This document shows positions 38,794 through 46,161 of a DNA stretch of 64,000 bases, in pieces. The notes under the pieces were generated by a model. The model had not been told where the DNA came from, did not search any database, and was given only the letters and a program-made list of their open reading frames with translations. Origin of the DNA: Rhodocytophaga aerolata (GTDB lineage Bacteria > Bacteroidota > Bacteroidia > Cytophagales > 172606-1); assembly GCF_030503435.1 (NCBI RefSeq), contig NZ_JAUKPO010000006.1:124001-188000 (forward strand), in the 5' to 3' direction. The translations under genes were made by a program, and so were the position numbers. Numbering within the stretch: the first letter of the stretch is position 1; each line of letters begins with the position of its first letter.

Positions 38794-39003
38794 AGTATTT
38801 ATTTTTGAACAAATAAAGTAAGTATATACACCGGCCAAATTAGTAAATTACTTATCCATTATAAGAGCGGCATCCATATATTTTACCGGTGCAGCACTAC
38901 AATCAGAAGGTAATTATGAGTAAATTTGCTTTGCGCAAGCCTACATCCTAGCTGCACACACGTACGCTATACACTTCAGATTGTTGCCAGTATCAGACGC
39001 ATT

Positions 39004-40422
39004 ATGAAAGTATCTCCGGCCCAGCTATTGGCCAAAAAGTTTCCCTTTACTCCTACACAAGGCCAGGCCGATCTGTTCAGGTTGCTGGAATATTTCATAC
39101 TGGAAAAAGAAAAATACCGGCAGGTATTTCTGCTGAAAGGCTTTGCCGGTACTGGAAAAACAACCGTTGTAAGCACCCTGATAGAGGTAGTTCGCAAGTT
39201 CGGCTACAAATATGTGATGCTGGCACCCACCGGCCGGGCCGCTAAAGTAATGACCAATTACTCTAAGCAAAAAGCCTCTACTATCCATAAAAAAGTCTAC
39301 TGGCAAAAGGCAGATCCGTATACTGGCAATCTGGTATTTGAACGGCAGAAAAATTACCACACTAATACCATTTTTGTGGTGGATGAAGCCTCCATGATTT
39401 CTGATGAAACAGATTTTATTGGCGGGAATGGTCTGTTAGCCGACCTGATAGACTATGTGTTTGAAGATGAAAGCAACAAATTAATGCTGATTGGCGATGC
39501 GGCTCAGCTACCACCAGTAGGCCGTATTCTGAGCCCAGCACTGGATAGTGAGTATTTAAAGCTCAATTTCGATGTAAGTGTATTAGAGAAAGAGCTGGAA
39601 GAGGTAATGCGGCAAGACGAGCAATCGGGTATTCTGATCAACGCCACTGCCTTGCGGAATGTATTGCTGCAAAACTCTACGGATGTTAAACTGCATACCA
39701 AATATTTTCCTGACATTTACCGGATGACCAGTGAAAAACTGGAAGATGGCCTCCGGTATGCCTACAACAAATATGGTACGGAAAACACCATTATCATTTG
39801 CCGGTCAAACAAAGCTGCTACCCAGTACAACCAGTACATCCGCCGGACTATCCATTTTACGGAGAATGAGATTGATGTAGGAGATATATTAATGGTGGTG
39901 CGTAACAATTACACTACCTTAGATGAAGGAGCCCCGGCAGGCTTTCTGGCCAATGGTGATTTTGTGGAAATTATGCGGGTGCGGAGTACAGAAAATATGT
40001 ATGGCTTCCGGTTTGCTAATCTGCAACTCCGGCTGATCGATTATCCGGAACAACCAGAATTTGAAGCAAAAATCTTATTAGATACCTTACATTCTTACGC
40101 ACCGGCTTTAAACCAGGAAGATAATAAAAAGCTTTACGACAATGTAGTGACGGATTATGCCTATATCCGTTCTAAAAAAGAGCGGAACGAAGTGATAAAA
40201 AAAGATCCCTATCTGAATGCGCTGCAAGTAAAGTTCGCTTATGCGCTTACCTGCCATAAATCGCAGGGTGGGCAGTGGAATGCCGTGTTCGTAGATCAGG
40301 GATTTCTGACGCAGGAAGGAGTGAATGCCGACTTTTTGCGCTGGCTCTATACAGCCATGACGAGAGCAACCAATGAATTATTTTTGATGAATTTTGACCC
40401 GCAATTCTTTATTATTTCGTAA
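39004..40422 (+). CDS. RecD/Dda-like superfamily I helicase
   Basis: I chose the ATG at 39004; the frame upstream is open but featureless. The 472-residue ATPase has the P-loop LKGFAGTGKTTVVSTL near residue 45, motif Ia LAPTGRAAKVM, motif II VVDEASMISD near 125, motif III LIGDAAQLPPVG near 163, and a C-terminal UvrD-like motif VI region (YALTCHKSQGGQWNAVFVD ... LYTAMTRAT). It is a compact RecD/Dda-type helicase without RecB or RecC partners. It probably acts in DNA repair or replication restart. Domain order and spacing are normal. Confidence 0.9.
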   Translation: MKVSPAQLLAKKFPFTPTQGQADLFRLLEYFILEKEKYRQVFLLKGFAGTGKTTVVSTLIEVVRKFGYKYVMLAPTGRAAKVMTNYSKQKASTIHKKVYWQKADPYTGNLVFERQKNYHTNTIFVVDEASMISDETDFIGGNGLLADLIDYVFEDESNKLMLIGDAAQLPPVGRILSPALDSEYLKLNFDVSVLEKELEEVMRQDEQSGILINATALRNVLLQNSTDVKLHTKYFPDIYRMTSEKLEDGLRYAYNKYGTENTIIICRSNKAATQYNQYIRRTIHFTENEIDVGDILMVVRNNYTTLDEGAPAGFLANGDFVEIMRVRSTENMYGFRFANLQLRLIDYPEQPEFEAKILLDTLHSYAPALNQEDNKKLYDNVVTDYAYIRSKKERNEVIKKDPYLNALQVKFAYALTCHKSQGGQWNAVFVDQGFLTQEGVNADFLRWLYTAMTRATNELFLMNFDPQFFIIS

Positions 40423-40545: not shown

Positions 40546-40977
40546 ATGAAAAAATTTGCACTCTTTGTATGTAGTTTGTTTTTTGCCTTTGCCGCCTTGG
40601 CTCAGAATCAACCTGCTACACAAGCCAAAGCCTCCGCAGCTAAAATTGCCTTTGAAGAAAAAACACATGACTTCGGCGATATTAAGCAAGGCGACAAAGT
40701 AGATTACACCTTTAAATTTAAAAATACTGGTACAGAGCCTGTAGTAATCTCCAATGTACAGACTACCTGCGGATGTACAGCTACTAACTGGACTAAAGAA
40801 CCCATTGCTCCAGGCAAAACCGGCGAAGTTTCGGCTACATTCAATAGTGCCGGTAAAATGGGTCAGCAAAACAAAGTAATTTCTGTGTATTACAATGGCG
40901 GTATGGAAACAGTGTCTATTGTGACAAATGTGCTTCCTGCTAAATCTGATGCATCAGCCAAGCAGAGCCAGAAATAA
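40546..40977 (+). CDS. DUF1573 secreted protein
   Basis: A 143-residue exported protein with a signal peptide (ALFVCSLFFAFAALAQ). The DUF1573 domain is an Ig-like/MSP-type beta-sandwich: FEEKTHDFGDIKQGDKVDY near residue 43 and NVQTTCGCTATNWTKEPIAP near 76, with the conserved CGC pair. The C-terminus is rich in Lys, Ser and Gln. Family members are abundant periplasmic proteins of unknown function in Bacteroidota. It is a one-gene unit with a -7-like element upstream and a terminator downstream. Confidence 0.88.
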   Translation: MKKFALFVCSLFFAFAALAQNQPATQAKASAAKIAFEEKTHDFGDIKQGDKVDYTFKFKNTGTEPVVISNVQTTCGCTATNWTKEPIAPGKTGEVSATFNSAGKMGQQNKVISVYYNGGMETVSIVTNVLPAKSDASAKQSQK

Positions 40978-40998
40978 CATTAACTTATGCAAGTATCT

Positions 40999-41025
40999 AA
41001 AAGCCCTTCCAACGAAGGGCTTTTT
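40999..41025 (+). terminator. Rho-independent terminator of the DUF1573 gene
   Basis: A perfect 11-bp stem (AAAAGCCCTTC with GAAGGGCTTTT) and a CAAC tetraloop lie 22 bp after the stop, with a T run. Confidence 0.9.
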
Positions 41026-41142
41026 GCTTATAGGCAGATTCACCAGAGGCAGGTATTACGTATGGTATATTTACCAGGCAACGTTGCTAAGAACAAGTAA
41101 CTTTTGTATATTCTTCCGTAGAATAGCCTATTCCAGATTAGT

Positions 41143-41802
41143 ATGAGAGATATGTTAAGTGTAGAATTGAAATATAAGCTGTTACAGGTTATTCAGCAGT
41201 ATTATCCTGTAGGCCTTCCATATTTAAATGCAAAATACCCCGGATATCAGGAGTTACGCAGTATTCTGGAAAGTAAAATAAATACCTTGATTAAAGAAGA
41301 AAAACTTGAACCCTGGGCAAGTCTGGTTGAACGCCTACAGATAGTTTTTCCTCAGAAGCCAGTGTACGATCATGCATATATTCAGTATCCAAGTGTATGG
41401 CTTTGTGTAGAGCTGGGCTCTCAGGAGGATTCTTTCCTGAAAAGGACTACCAATCTGCATGTATATATATCTTTGTTAGCACCCTATTATACCATTTCTC
41501 TGGAAGAATACATTGTACCAGTAACGTATAATGAAAATTTAGCTCCCTCTCTTGTATCCTATTATAAAACGTATCAAACTGCCTCCATTATTGAAAAACA
41601 ACAGTATTTTGATAAAGTCCTGGAGGCCATCAAGGTATATTATGCGGCTTATACCTACCTGGATTTTCATGCCATACATTTCCTGAAAATAACTGGGGCT
41701 ATTCCGCATGGGGAAGATGAAGAAACGATGCATGTAACCTATCCTGCCTGCGATTTCCTGTTTGGTTCCGGCTCAAAATCAGGCACCCTACATTGGGTTT
41801 AA
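41143..41802 (+). CDS. Hypothetical cytosolic protein, 219 residues
   Basis: I do not recognise a family. The 219-residue protein has no signal peptide or membrane helix. It is helix-rich with many Tyr residues (VIQQYYPVGLPYLNAKYPGY near residue 17, AIKVYYAAYTYLDFHAIHFL near 165). Codon use is slightly AT-richer than neighbours. It lies between a terminator and the AraC gene, transcribed the same way, and so has its own promoter. No functional inference is possible. Confidence 0.6.
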   Translation: MRDMLSVELKYKLLQVIQQYYPVGLPYLNAKYPGYQELRSILESKINTLIKEEKLEPWASLVERLQIVFPQKPVYDHAYIQYPSVWLCVELGSQEDSFLKRTTNLHVYISLLAPYYTISLEEYIVPVTYNENLAPSLVSYYKTYQTASIIEKQQYFDKVLEAIKVYYAAYTYLDFHAIHFLKITGAIPHGEDEETMHVTYPACDFLFGSGSKSGTLHWV

Positions 41803-41913
41803 CAACCAGGTGAGCCAAAGAGGGAACAGGTTTACCTTTACTAACGCTAAATTTGGTTGAAGGCAATAAATTGTTAATATTCGCAGCAAGCATTCATTTA
41901 TTTGCCTTTTGCG

Positions 41914-42783
41914 GTGGCCAAGAAAGTTCCTGTACTCCAGATAAATAATTTCCAGCAAGTAGCAGCCATTCTTCCAAATGTATATGTGCAACGCATGGAG
42001 GAGCACCTGGCCCAGTATCAATTCATCAAAACCCCTCACCGCCACGATTTCTATTGTATCTTTTTATTCACACAAGGCACTGGCACGCATATTATTGATT
42101 TTAAAACATATGAAGTAACGCCGGGAAGTGTGTTTTTTATGTCACCGGCGCAAATGCATACCTTTCAGCTGTCGGCAGATACAGATGGATATGTGGTTTT
42201 TTTTACTCCCGAATTGTACCTACTGGAAAATACCCGCCATACATTGGCGCATTTCCCCTTTTTTCATTATACAGCTTCTCCCTGCATGGTTCTGAATGGG
42301 AATATCCGGACAGCCGTTACAGAAATTGTTATCCGCATCTATCAGGAATACAGGGGGAATGAACCGCACAAACAAGCCATTATTAGCTCTTATCTGAATA
42401 TTCTGTTAATCAAATTAAGCAATCAATATAGCCAGGTCAATCATCCGTCGTTATCGTCTCATCTGCTTCACCAAATCCGGCAGTTAGAATCACTTATTGA
42501 AAAGCATTACCTGGCGCATAAACCAGCCGGCGAATATGCAGAGCTAATGAACATATCTCAGAAGCAATTAAACACCATCTGCCAGACAGCTTTATCTAAG
42601 CCGTTGAGTACCATTTTGCAGGAGCGAATTATTTTGGAAGCCAAACGGCTGCTGGTACATACCCACCTGACCATTGCACAGATTTCTGCACAACTCAATT
42701 TTACAGATAATTCCTACTTTACCCGTTTCTTTAAAAAAAATGCCGGGCTTACCCCTGAGCAATTCCGGCAGCAGTTCCAATAA
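41914..42783 (+). CDS. AraC-family transcriptional regulator
   Basis: I favour a GTG start at 41914 (reading MAKKVPVLQINNF) because these residues match the usual start of this AraC subgroup; a TTG at 41902 and an ATG at 41995 are alternatives. The 289-residue product has an N-terminal cupin-like sensing domain (KTPHRHDFYCIFLFTQGTG near residue 41) and a C-terminal pair of helix-turn-helix motifs (AGEYAELMNISQKQLNTICQ, and LTIAQISAQLNFTDNSYFTR followed by FRQQFQ). Such regulators respond to small ligands and often control a neighbouring exporter or catabolic gene; no clear target is beside it. Confidence 0.88.
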   Translation: MAKKVPVLQINNFQQVAAILPNVYVQRMEEHLAQYQFIKTPHRHDFYCIFLFTQGTGTHIIDFKTYEVTPGSVFFMSPAQMHTFQLSADTDGYVVFFTPELYLLENTRHTLAHFPFFHYTASPCMVLNGNIRTAVTEIVIRIYQEYRGNEPHKQAIISSYLNILLIKLSNQYSQVNHPSLSSHLLHQIRQLESLIEKHYLAHKPAGEYAELMNISQKQLNTICQTALSKPLSTILQERIILEAKRLLVHTHLTIAQISAQLNFTDNSYFTRFFKKNAGLTPEQFRQQFQ

Positions 42784-42862
42784 GTACCATCAATACCGCT
42801 TTTTGTTCTATCAATCCTGCTTTTTATACGTTATTTTTGTTATCGTATTAAAGTAATTTAAC

Positions 42863-43261
42863 ATGATAGGCAAGGGAAGTAAAATATATAGTGTCGTACA
42901 AGGGGTTTGTCCCCGGTGCCAGGAAGGGAAAGTATTTACCTATGCTCCTTTCAAATCTATTGAATTTACCCAGATGAATGAACAATGTGCCCGATGTGGC
43001 CAGGCTTTTGAACCTGAACCTGACTTTTATCAAGGTGCCATGTATGTCAGTTATGGGTTATCGAGTGCGTTGTTCTTATCGGTAGGCGTACTGATGTTAT
43101 TCTTTCTGAACCTGGGATATGTAGTCACTTTCAGCGTTATGGGCGTAATAGCTATTTTATCGCTGCCCATTATTTTCCGCGTATCCCGCCTGATCTGGTT
43201 GAATTTCTTTGTGAGCTACAGACCTTCAACCATAAAGCAGCCTCAGCCAGGAAATAATTAG
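42863..43261 (+). CDS. DUF983 zinc-ribbon membrane protein
   Basis: A 132-residue inner-membrane protein of family DUF983. The N-terminal zinc-ribbon has two Cys pairs (VCPRCQEGKVF near residue 15 and QCARCGQAFEPEPDFYQGAM near 40), followed by two membrane helices and a short tail. Function is unknown; the family is widespread in Bacteroidota and alphaproteobacteria. It follows the AraC gene by 79 bp. No further functional link is visible. Confidence 0.85.
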   Translation: MIGKGSKIYSVVQGVCPRCQEGKVFTYAPFKSIEFTQMNEQCARCGQAFEPEPDFYQGAMYVSYGLSSALFLSVGVLMLFFLNLGYVVTFSVMGVIAILSLPIIFRVSRLIWLNFFVSYRPSTIKQPQPGNN

Positions 43262-43436
43262 CCAGCAATGTTCGCTAACGTAGAATAGGTTTTACTACAT
43301 CCCTGTTTTTCTCGTCTCCACTTAACTGTGTTACAGCCCTCTTATGTAAAAGGTAGTGTGCATATGCTTCAGATTTAGCATATTAGCTATACTCAGGCAC
43401 TTTGCTATCTGGAGCTACACCTATATTACACAGGAG

Positions 43437-44498
43437 ATGAAAAATCAATTGTACTGGCTATGTCAGCTTTTTGGATGGACATATCATTTTTCAATTGATA
43501 GTATGCGGTACGTCAGCCTGTTTGGCATGAGTACTGGCTTAGTAGCCAATGCTTTCATAAACATACTCTTATGTATAGGCATCACCCATTCCTATCACCT
43601 GCTGATTGAAAAACTCGCCTGGCTGGATTTGCCATTGCAAAAGCTTATCCCCCGCATTATTGCTGCCGTAACACTTATGTCCACTATGCTGGCTTTGCTC
43701 AATATTCCTATTGATTATTATACCATTCCGGCGATGCGCCAGGTGTGGACAAATTTAAGTGGAATTGCTATTGTATTTATTATTACCAACTGGGGTAAAC
43801 ATTTCTTACTTTGGGCACTTATCTACCATGTATACCAATACTCTGACCGGTCTAGGAAAAGTGAGGTGGAAAAAATTAAATTGTTGGCCTCCGTGAAAGA
43901 TTTTGAATCTAAAATGTTGCGAGCCTAGTTGAATCCTCATTTTATGTTCAATGCCATGAATAGCATACGGGCATTGATTATTGAGAATCCTGAAAAGTCA
44001 CAAACATCTATTACCAAACTATCTAATTTACTGCGCAGCACCCTGCTTGCCGATAAGCATACAACTGTAGCCCTGGAGGAAGAATTAAAAACAGTACAAG
44101 ATTATCTGGCCTTAGAAAAAATCCGCTTTGAAGACAGGCTGCAAGTTGCTATAAAAATAGATCCTTCTACTTTATATGTCCAGGTGCCGCCCTTAATGGT
44201 ACAAACACTGGTAGAAAATGCAGTAAAACATGGAATTTCTAAATCTGTAAAGGGGGGCATTATTGCTATAGAGACAAAAAATGAATCTAGGTTTACCCAT
44301 ATCTTTATCCGGAACACAGGTATGTTACAACCCTCAAGTTCAGAAGGATTCGGGTTAGCCAACACTAGTCAACGGCTAGCCCTGCTTTTTGGTAAGCAAG
44401 CCAGTTTTGAGATTAAACAAGAGCTACCAGATGTTGTATGTGCAGAGTTAATTATACCAATGGAGTTTGCAGGAGAGTTAAAAAGTGTTCTAACATAG
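43437..44498 (+). pseudogene. LytS-type sensor kinase with amber codon at the H-box
   Basis: An ATG at 43437, preceded by AGGAG, opens a kinase of about 353 codons broken once by TAG at 43926-43928. The N-terminal half has four predicted membrane helices. The second half is the LytS-type kinase: LNPHFMFNAMNSI (phosphorylated His), then VPPLMVQTLVENAVKHGIS, the ATP-binding N box, and EGFGLANTSQRLALLFG. The expected sequence is A-Q-L-N-P-H-F; here the codon at Gln is TAG, one C-to-T change from CAG. Everything after the stop is intact. TAG ends many other genes here (for example kefF), so it is a real stop. It is probably a recent pseudogene, unless suppressed or mis-sequenced. Confidence 0.82.
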
Positions 44499-44695
44499 AA
44501 AGATAGTATTAACCATCAGCTTTTTTCCAATATAATCTTATAGGAGTCGTGTATTTTGATTTACCATTTAAATGAGTTAATAACTATTACTGTAAAATCT
44601 ATTTAAAATTAAATGAAGGAAAGTATCTTATTTAAGATAAACTGTATAAATTATTCTATTTCTATGTATTTGTTTGGAAGCTTATATCTTACGAG

Positions 44696-45163
44696 ATGAA
44701 GAAGATTTACTTTTATTGGATATTCCAGATTATTGGATGGACAGGCTGTTGTTTATTTGAACTCCTAGCTTATTATAATTCCTTTGGTTTCCAAATTGGA
44801 TTGCTTGTTAATGCCTTTGCCACTTTATCATTGGGAATAGCTATTACTCACTTCTACCGATTACTCATCAAAAAACTCTCCTGGCTTGATTTACCTCTTC
44901 AAAAGCTTTTTCCTCGAATAATTGGCTCTGTTGCTCTCATGGCAAACGTGATGACATTGGTTGGTCTTCCCATTGACTATTATACAGTTCCTGCTATGCA
45001 GGAGGTAATCGTAAATTTGAACTTGATGCTTGTTTTTCTCTTTGTTATTACTTGGGGAAAATATTTACTTCTCTGGGCACTTTTTTACCATTTGTTTCAA
45101 TATTATCAACGATCCAATACCATTCGACTGATTCACATCGCAAATCAACTACCTAATAAATAG
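44696..45163 (+). pseudogene. Truncated LytS-type kinase paralogue (membrane half only)
   Basis: A 155-residue protein paralogous to the N-terminal membrane half of the gene at 43437. Shared landmarks are KLSWLDLPLQKLFPRI against KLAWLDLPLQKLIPRI, GLPIDYYTVPAM against NIPIDYYTIPAM, and WGKYLLLWALFYH against WGKHFLLWALIYH. It stops 20 residues after the last helix (QRSNTIRLIHIANQ), before the coiled linker and H-box. There is no kinase domain downstream, only 58 bp to the next gene. Sequence is strikingly AT-rich. It is most simply a gene truncated by deletion; a stand-alone membrane sensor is a less likely alternative. Confidence 0.65.
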
Positions 45164-45175
45164 CAGACCAAAATG

Positions 45176-45198
45176 TACTTTACTTATTAAGTAAAGTA
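45176..45198. repeat. Perfect AT-rich inverted repeat
   Basis: An 11-1-11 perfect inverted repeat (TACTTTACTTA, T, TAAGTAAAGTA) lies in the 58-bp gap between the truncated kinase and the convergent DUF423 gene. It lacks a flanking T run, so it may be a terminator-like hairpin or a trace of the deletion that removed the kinase domain. Confidence 0.65.
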
Positions 45199-45221
45199 GC
45201 TAATTTCAAATAAATACAAAA

Positions 45222-45596
45222 TTACAACTGCCTAGTAATTCCCATAGCTAGCAGCACCCAGCCAGCAATCATAAGGACACCACCAATGGGTGTAATGGCA
45301 CCCAGCCATTTGATGCCAGTCATACACAATATATACAAGCTACCAGAGAATATAATAGTGCCTGCCAGCATCAGGTTTCCGGAGTAATGGAGTAGTTTGG
45401 AGTCGAGTCTGAAGAGAAGTAAGCCAATAAGTAACAAAGCCAGCGCATGGTAAAACTGGTAACGTACGGCTGTTTCAAATGTGTCGGTACGGCTGGTAGA
45501 TTCCAGCATTGCTTTTAAAGCATGGGCTCCGAAAGCACCAATAGCCACTCCCAAGCCACCCAGAATGGCCCCACTTAACAGAAATAATTTTTGCAT
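45222..45596 (-). CDS. DUF423 membrane protein
   Basis: I chose the ATG at 45596 (MQKLFLLSGAILGGLGVAIG), since the frame upstream overlaps the divergent gene. The 124-residue protein has four membrane helices. The family features are visible: the first-helix Gly-rich stretch, GAFGAHALKAMLES near residue 20, and YHALALLLIG near 47. DUF423 is annotated only as a small membrane protein (YgdD-like); function is unknown. Its start is 49 bp from the divergent phosphatase gene. Confidence 0.85.
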   Translation of the reverse strand: MQKLFLLSGAILGGLGVAIGAFGAHALKAMLESTSRTDTFETAVRYQFYHALALLLIGLLLFRLDSKLLHYSGNLMLAGTIIFSGSLYILCMTGIKWLGAITPIGGVLMIAGWVLLAMGITRQL

Positions 45597-45645
45597 AGAT
45601 TGAAATTTTATATTCTTTTGCCGGAAACAAAAATAGCAAGACCCC

Positions 45646-46161
45646 ATGAATAAATGTGTATTTCTGGACCGCGATGGTGTACTAAATGAAGAAATAGGTG
45701 GCTATGTATATGAACTCGATCAATTAATAATTCCCGAAGGCATGCCAGAGGCTTTGCAACTGTTGAAAAAAGCAGGGTATTTATTAGTGGTGATAACAAA
45801 CCAGGCAGGTATTGCCAAAGGATTATATACAGAAAAAGAAGTAATGCAATGCCATCAGAAAATTCAGGAGGCTTGCGGAAATGTTCTGGACGCTATATAT
45901 TATTGCCCGTATCATCCCAGTTACGATTCCGAATCCATCGCCCGTAAGCCGGATTCTTTGATGCTGGAAAAAGCCATTGCCAGATTTAACATAGATGTTG
46001 CCCAGTCGTGGCTGGTAGGAGACAGGGAACGGGACATAGAGGCCGCACAGAAGGTAGCCGTAAGAGGAATATTTGTTACCGATGGAAAAGAAAAATGCCC
46101 GGCAGCTGTGTACCAGGCAAAAAATTTATATGAAGCAGCAAGTATTCTGTTGAAAGCATAA
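45646..46161 (+). CDS. gmhB: GmhB-like HAD phosphatase with incomplete zinc loop
   Basis: A 171-residue HAD-family enzyme resembling D-glycero-D-manno-heptose-1,7-bisphosphate 7-phosphatase (or the HisB N-terminal phosphatase). Motif I is FLDRDGVLNEE near residue 6, motif II VITNQAGIAKG near 49, motif III Lys in ARKPDSLML near 105, and motif IV VGDRERDIEAAQ near 124. The zinc loop is incomplete: the CPYHP half is present but the later CxC before RKP is missing (SYDSESIARKP). So it may bind zinc poorly or have a different sugar-phosphate substrate. It ends in a terminator overlapping the stop. Confidence 0.78.
   Translation: MNKCVFLDRDGVLNEEIGGYVYELDQLIIPEGMPEALQLLKKAGYLLVVITNQAGIAKGLYTEKEVMQCHQKIQEACGNVLDAIYYCPYHPSYDSESIARKPDSLMLEKAIARFNIDVAQSWLVGDRERDIEAAQKVAVRGIFVTDGKEKCPAAVYQAKNLYEAASILLKA

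Follow-up and report, generated by a model that had tools for sequence, protein, structure and literature searches.

Whether an in-frame amber codon in a sensor kinase gene of Rhodocytophaga aerolata marks a gene recently lost, a shortened protein still in use, or a kinase that is complete after all is the question raised by this locus. The gene lies in a stretch of 64,000 nucleotides, the whole of which is called the window here. Its frame (43437-44498, forward strand) opens with an ATG at 43437, closes with a TAG at 44496-44498 and contains another TAG, in the same frame, at 43926-43928. Upstream of this codon lie 163 codons (43437-43925) for four predicted membrane helices and a linker helix, and intact kinases have homologous sensor halves; downstream of it lie 189 codons and the terminal TAG (43929-44498), which make up the kinase half. 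No other in-frame stop occurs, which confirms the undamaged downstream frame of 189 codons described in the original prediction.

The downstream half matches the His_kinase family PF06580 (E 1.1e-22; 80.6 bits against a cut-off of 25.2) over positions 10-81 of the 81-position profile, and the most similar copy that the genome contains, the intact C191, matches over positions 2-81. The motifs LNPHF (the H-box), LVENAVKHG and GFGL are all kept, and presumably have their usual roles in the kinase half. The upstream half matched no Pfam family at E 0.001 and no NCBIfam family at E 0.1. The 5TMR-LYT input domain, which one report (PMC10653868) describes as typical of every LytS-type kinase, was found neither in the two sensors of the window (E 0.001) nor in an alignment of 20 sensor sequences (up to E 1). 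Therefore, the label of LytS-type kinase holds for the PF06580 half and is too specific for the protein as a whole. The AlphaFold model of the sensor half, built with 20 sequences (mean pLDDT 88.0), consists of four long helices, and its fold had no match among the solved structures of the PDB at E 0.001. Since the last helix of the model spans residues 109-162, the TAG would fall right at the helix end. The predicted separation of the membrane sensor from the kinase domain is supported.

All 34 intact relatives have Gln at the position of the TAG (encoded by CAA in 20 and by CAG in 14), a set composed of 25 sequences from 80 homologous loci and nine from further genomes, with the damaged copy of genome G002 (locus L138) left out. 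None of them carries the TAG, whose presence in all relatives had been named as a refutation of the original prediction, and the amber codon is where it had been predicted to be, at the conserved Gln before the H-box; an in-frame stop that is absent from intact relatives is one mark of a pseudogene made by nonsense mutation. A continuous frame over the H-box and the catalytic half was not found, the TAG taking the place of the residue before LNPHF. In 29 of the 31 other kinase matches of the same genome this position was examined, giving Gln in 27 and Lys in two. A looser motif scan, run over one strand of the 80 loci without regard to frame, found Q at 60 loci, H at seven, E at one, N at one and no motif at 11; since that scan ignores the gene frame, we relied on the 34-sequence set for the residue at the TAG. 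The exact position of the codon is statistically unremarkable by itself, as 108 of the 352 remaining codons of the frame are one substitution away from a stop and 15 (CAA, CAG or CGA) would become one by a single C-to-T change.

A search of 390 genomes for a T[AG][AG] codon followed by the codons of LNPHF returned, among the matches listed, 74 places in 69 genomes; 65 were examined, and the other nine are all TGG and not stops. Only one of the 59 stop-type places listed heads a kinase frame, namely that of the window (200 bits). The next best scored 7 bits, is a second hit in the same genome, on C197, and opens only 19 codons. The Gln form of the pattern occurs in 254 of the 390 genomes. Among the places listed, the same in-frame stop was not found in relatives.

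The genomic setting of the gene differs from that of its intact copy. C191 encodes 375 residues and is followed, 53 bases downstream, by a Response_reg+LytTR gene. A LytTR-type regulator within 1.5 kb downstream is the arrangement in 30 of the 35 relatives examined, C191 included; among the five relatives that have no regulator nearby, one offers only 584 bases of room. The C191 regulator has no match anywhere in the 64-kb window, so that no LytTR regulator adjoins the interrupted kinase. None of the 31 other kinase matches in the genome contains a stop. Elsewhere, G002 (L138, 6214-7358) has a kinase frame interrupted at several points next to a regulator that is intact, and the regulator of G004 (L136, 7530-8253) is split over two open reading frames; both may be assembly errors.

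The gene also belongs to a block of about 4.2 kb (40978-45221) that comprises an open reading frame of 219 amino acids, an AraC-type regulator, a DUF983-like frame, the interrupted kinase and a sensor-only copy. The block is bounded by a DUF1573 gene (40546-40977, forward strand) and a DUF423 gene (45222-45647, reverse strand). The genomes searched include one further member of the genus, G001. In G001 the homologues of a helicase-like gene (38926-40422), of the DUF1573 gene and of the DUF423 gene adjoin one another, the last two being separated by 63 bases; therefore, the block is absent at that place. The AraC-type gene has a homologue elsewhere in G001 (54% identical) and one in G006 (61%). 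In 1-kb windows, the GC content of the block is 0.35-0.41, showing no sharp contrast, and a mobile element was considered and rejected, no repeats marking the block ends. The 219-residue frame (41143-41802) matched no Pfam family at E 0.001 and no NCBIfam family at E 0.1. As a separate observation, G001 has an open reading frame of 192 amino acids (L250, 2777-3355) between its DUF423 and HAD-type genes, which directly adjoin each other in the window.

The copy in the window has evolved fast. In the whole-protein tree its end branch measures 0.84, compared with 0.20 for C191 and 0.07 for G001, and in the kinase half 0.67, compared with 0.10 and 0.21, lengths that come from small alignments with long branches and from trees that flag the window rows as unsure; of the 37 rows, 16 entered the separate tree of the kinase half and 18 that of the sensor half. 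Nevertheless, 63 of the 65 kinase-half columns in which the other 34 rows all agree are kept, the two changes being R to K and Y to F, and the other rows checked show between zero and four such changes; in the sensor half, one of 14 columns invariant elsewhere is changed. Against C191, the kinase half has a dN of 0.237 and a dS of about 2.6, which is near saturation. The kept invariant residues and the low dN despite the long branch suggest that the copy diverged under constraint. The lack of an extra stop limits the length of any neutral phase to about d < 0.07 across the frame, and in a simulation that started from the present sequence, 0.05 of neutral drift cost 6.2 invariant sites on average. 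As no further stop has appeared and 63 of 65 invariant residues are retained, either the stop is young or the kinase half is still translated, and the clean, apparently recent nonsense mutation that had been proposed is consistent with these data.

Directly downstream of the interrupted kinase, a second copy of the sensor half encodes 155 residues (44696-45163, forward strand) within an open frame of 175 codons and has no kinase half. G001 has a sensor-only copy of its own (L133, 8252-8707, reverse strand), which immediately precedes the gene of its intact kinase and shares 72% identity with the sensor of that kinase; the sensor match extends past the stop of this copy. When the sensor alignment was used to scan 390 genomes of the order, with up to nine candidates scored per genome, matches were obtained in 229 genomes and, among the matches listed, open frames shorter than 323 amino acids were confined to the two window copies (192 and 175), the G001 copy (162) and the damaged G002 copy (277, with three stops). 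The sensor-only copies of the window and of G001 have probably lost their kinase halves separately, judging by sequence relationships. A common origin of both was considered and not supported, the G001 copy grouping with its own neighbor; this grouping has modest support (84 in the whole-protein tree, and in the half tree a place inside a 92/90 group that lacks finer resolution). The trees gave no resolution on a sister relation of the two window copies.

Taken together, we consider it likely, although with appreciable doubt, that a redundant orphan duplicate has recently acquired a nonsense mutation and would now yield only the sensor. The duplicate reading is based on the stop itself, the intact C191 with its regulator, the lack of that regulator in the window, the long branch and the kept kinase residues. 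It is supported by the absence of the block from G001 and by the loss of the kinase half in the neighboring copy. According to this hypothesis, a full-length sensor kinase would have been duplicated away from its LytTR partner gene, would have diverged quickly while still constrained, and would recently have had the Gln codon that precedes the H-box turned into a stop by one mutation. Translation would then stop at the TAG and yield a membrane protein of 163 residues devoid of kinase activity, and the downstream half, no longer translated, would only have begun to decay. Since the intact C191 kinase and its regulator would keep the pathway running, the loss may be tolerated. In this respect the original prediction is supported as to a recent nonsense mutation that splits sensor from kinase, and it missed the main point in calling the gene an otherwise preserved sensor: it is an orphan, long-branch duplicate adjoined by a kinase-less copy, with the intact paralogue and the LytTR regulator located elsewhere.

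Among the alternatives, the one that survives best, although we regard it as rather unlikely, is that the shortened protein is useful: by associating with the intact kinase, or by capturing the signal meant for it, kinase-less sensors of this genus would dampen or adjust its activity, and a third one would have arisen through the TAG. Sensor-only copies are found in both genomes of the genus that were searched and, among the matches listed from the 390 genomes, nowhere else except for the damaged G002 copy. The G001 pair of sensor-only and full-length copies has a dN of 0.187 and a dS of 0.93, that is, a dN/dS of about 0.20, and the sensor-only frame of the window has stayed open over 155 codons despite its deep divergence. 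These truncations are undated, however, so that the selection recorded could predate them, and the branch of the G001 sensor-only copy is about seven times that of its full-length neighbor (0.32 versus 0.044), which fits relaxed constraint. It is conceivable, at similarly low probability, that the genus repeatedly turns duplicates of one sensor kinase into kinase-less membrane sensors, acting as partners or decoys of a single intact kinase, and that the TAG is the newest step of this process, caught before the decay of the kinase half.

Somewhat less probable still is an intact gene whose TAG is due to a wrong base in the draft assembly. A single base decides the matter, in an assembly of 202 contigs and in the one genome of the species, and an open remaining frame with 63 of 65 invariant residues kept is what an intact gene would display. 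The absence of any other disruption in the frame nevertheless speaks against an error, and the 31 other kinase matches, all free of stops, argue against frequent errors across the assembly.

A nonsense mutation in a duplicate also has to be weighed against continued translation, since the good preservation of the kinase half may mean that it is still translated, by restart or by readthrough. Restart would make this a split gene whose kinase half begins at the TTG that immediately follows the TAG, 5' of the histidine codon, to work as a soluble kinase or together with the membrane half. Beyond the conserved kinase half and this start codon, kinases on two polypeptides do exist (PMC3591291). The nearest in-frame ATG downstream of the stop (43944), however, is already past the histidine of LNPHF, and the two halves are fused in all 34 relatives, with no such split, which makes this explanation very improbable.

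As for readthrough, 40 tRNA hits, all over the cut-off, were obtained from the 150 candidates scored out of 432, a set from which tRNA-Ile is missing, and none has a CTA anticodon. ARAGORN in default mode called 38 of these 40 loci; L178 was called, as a Glu tRNA, only when introns were allowed, and L179 was not called. The genome encodes release factor 1 (prfA; 503 bits, with a cut-off at 423), so that the loss of RF1 that would indicate recoding was not found. TAG ends 15 of the 60 non-overlapping open reading frames of at least 100 amino acids in the window, three of which come from this locus in a mechanically made list, and terminates two of 29 other kinase genes of the genome. Despite an intact downstream frame and a TAG placed at a Gln position, a full-length kinase produced through a suppressor tRNA or recoding, suggested originally as possible suppression, is therefore extremely unlikely: no CTA anticodon is seen in the incomplete tRNA set, RF1 is present, TAG serves as an ordinary terminator, and a kinase frame follows just one of the 59 stop-type places listed from the 390 genomes.

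Compared with known LytS/LytTR systems, such as BtsS/BtsR and YpdA/YpdB of E. coli, the window kinase shares the PF06580 half, and the intact C191 also shares the adjacent LytTR-type response regulator. The window copy differs in that no regulator lies beside it and its frame is interrupted, and the sensors described here have four predicted helices with no Pfam match in place of 5TMR-LYT, whereas BtsS has seven membrane helices (PMC10653868). The split kinases CheA3 and CheA4 of Rhodobacter sphaeroides divide ATP binding and phosphotransfer between two expressed proteins (PMC3591291), so that the functions of one kinase are carried by two polypeptides, as they would be here. In the present case, by contrast, the cut falls between sensor and kinase and is made by a nonsense codon, and the second half shows no sign of being translated.

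A lone nonsense mutation in a duplicate is ordinary, and the added interest of this locus comes from the kinase-less sensors of both genus members searched, which recur nowhere else among the matches listed bar the damaged G002 copy. They raise the testable question of whether sensor-only paralogues are regulators of the parent kinase or products of its decay. Pseudogenes produced by nonsense mutation in duplicated genes are a known kind, and the likeness lies in the single stop within an intact frame, the intact paralogue elsewhere and the fast-evolving orphan copy. The differences are that this stop appears very young, with hardly any decay of the downstream half, and that the neighboring copy, having lost its kinase half entirely, stops close to the same domain boundary.
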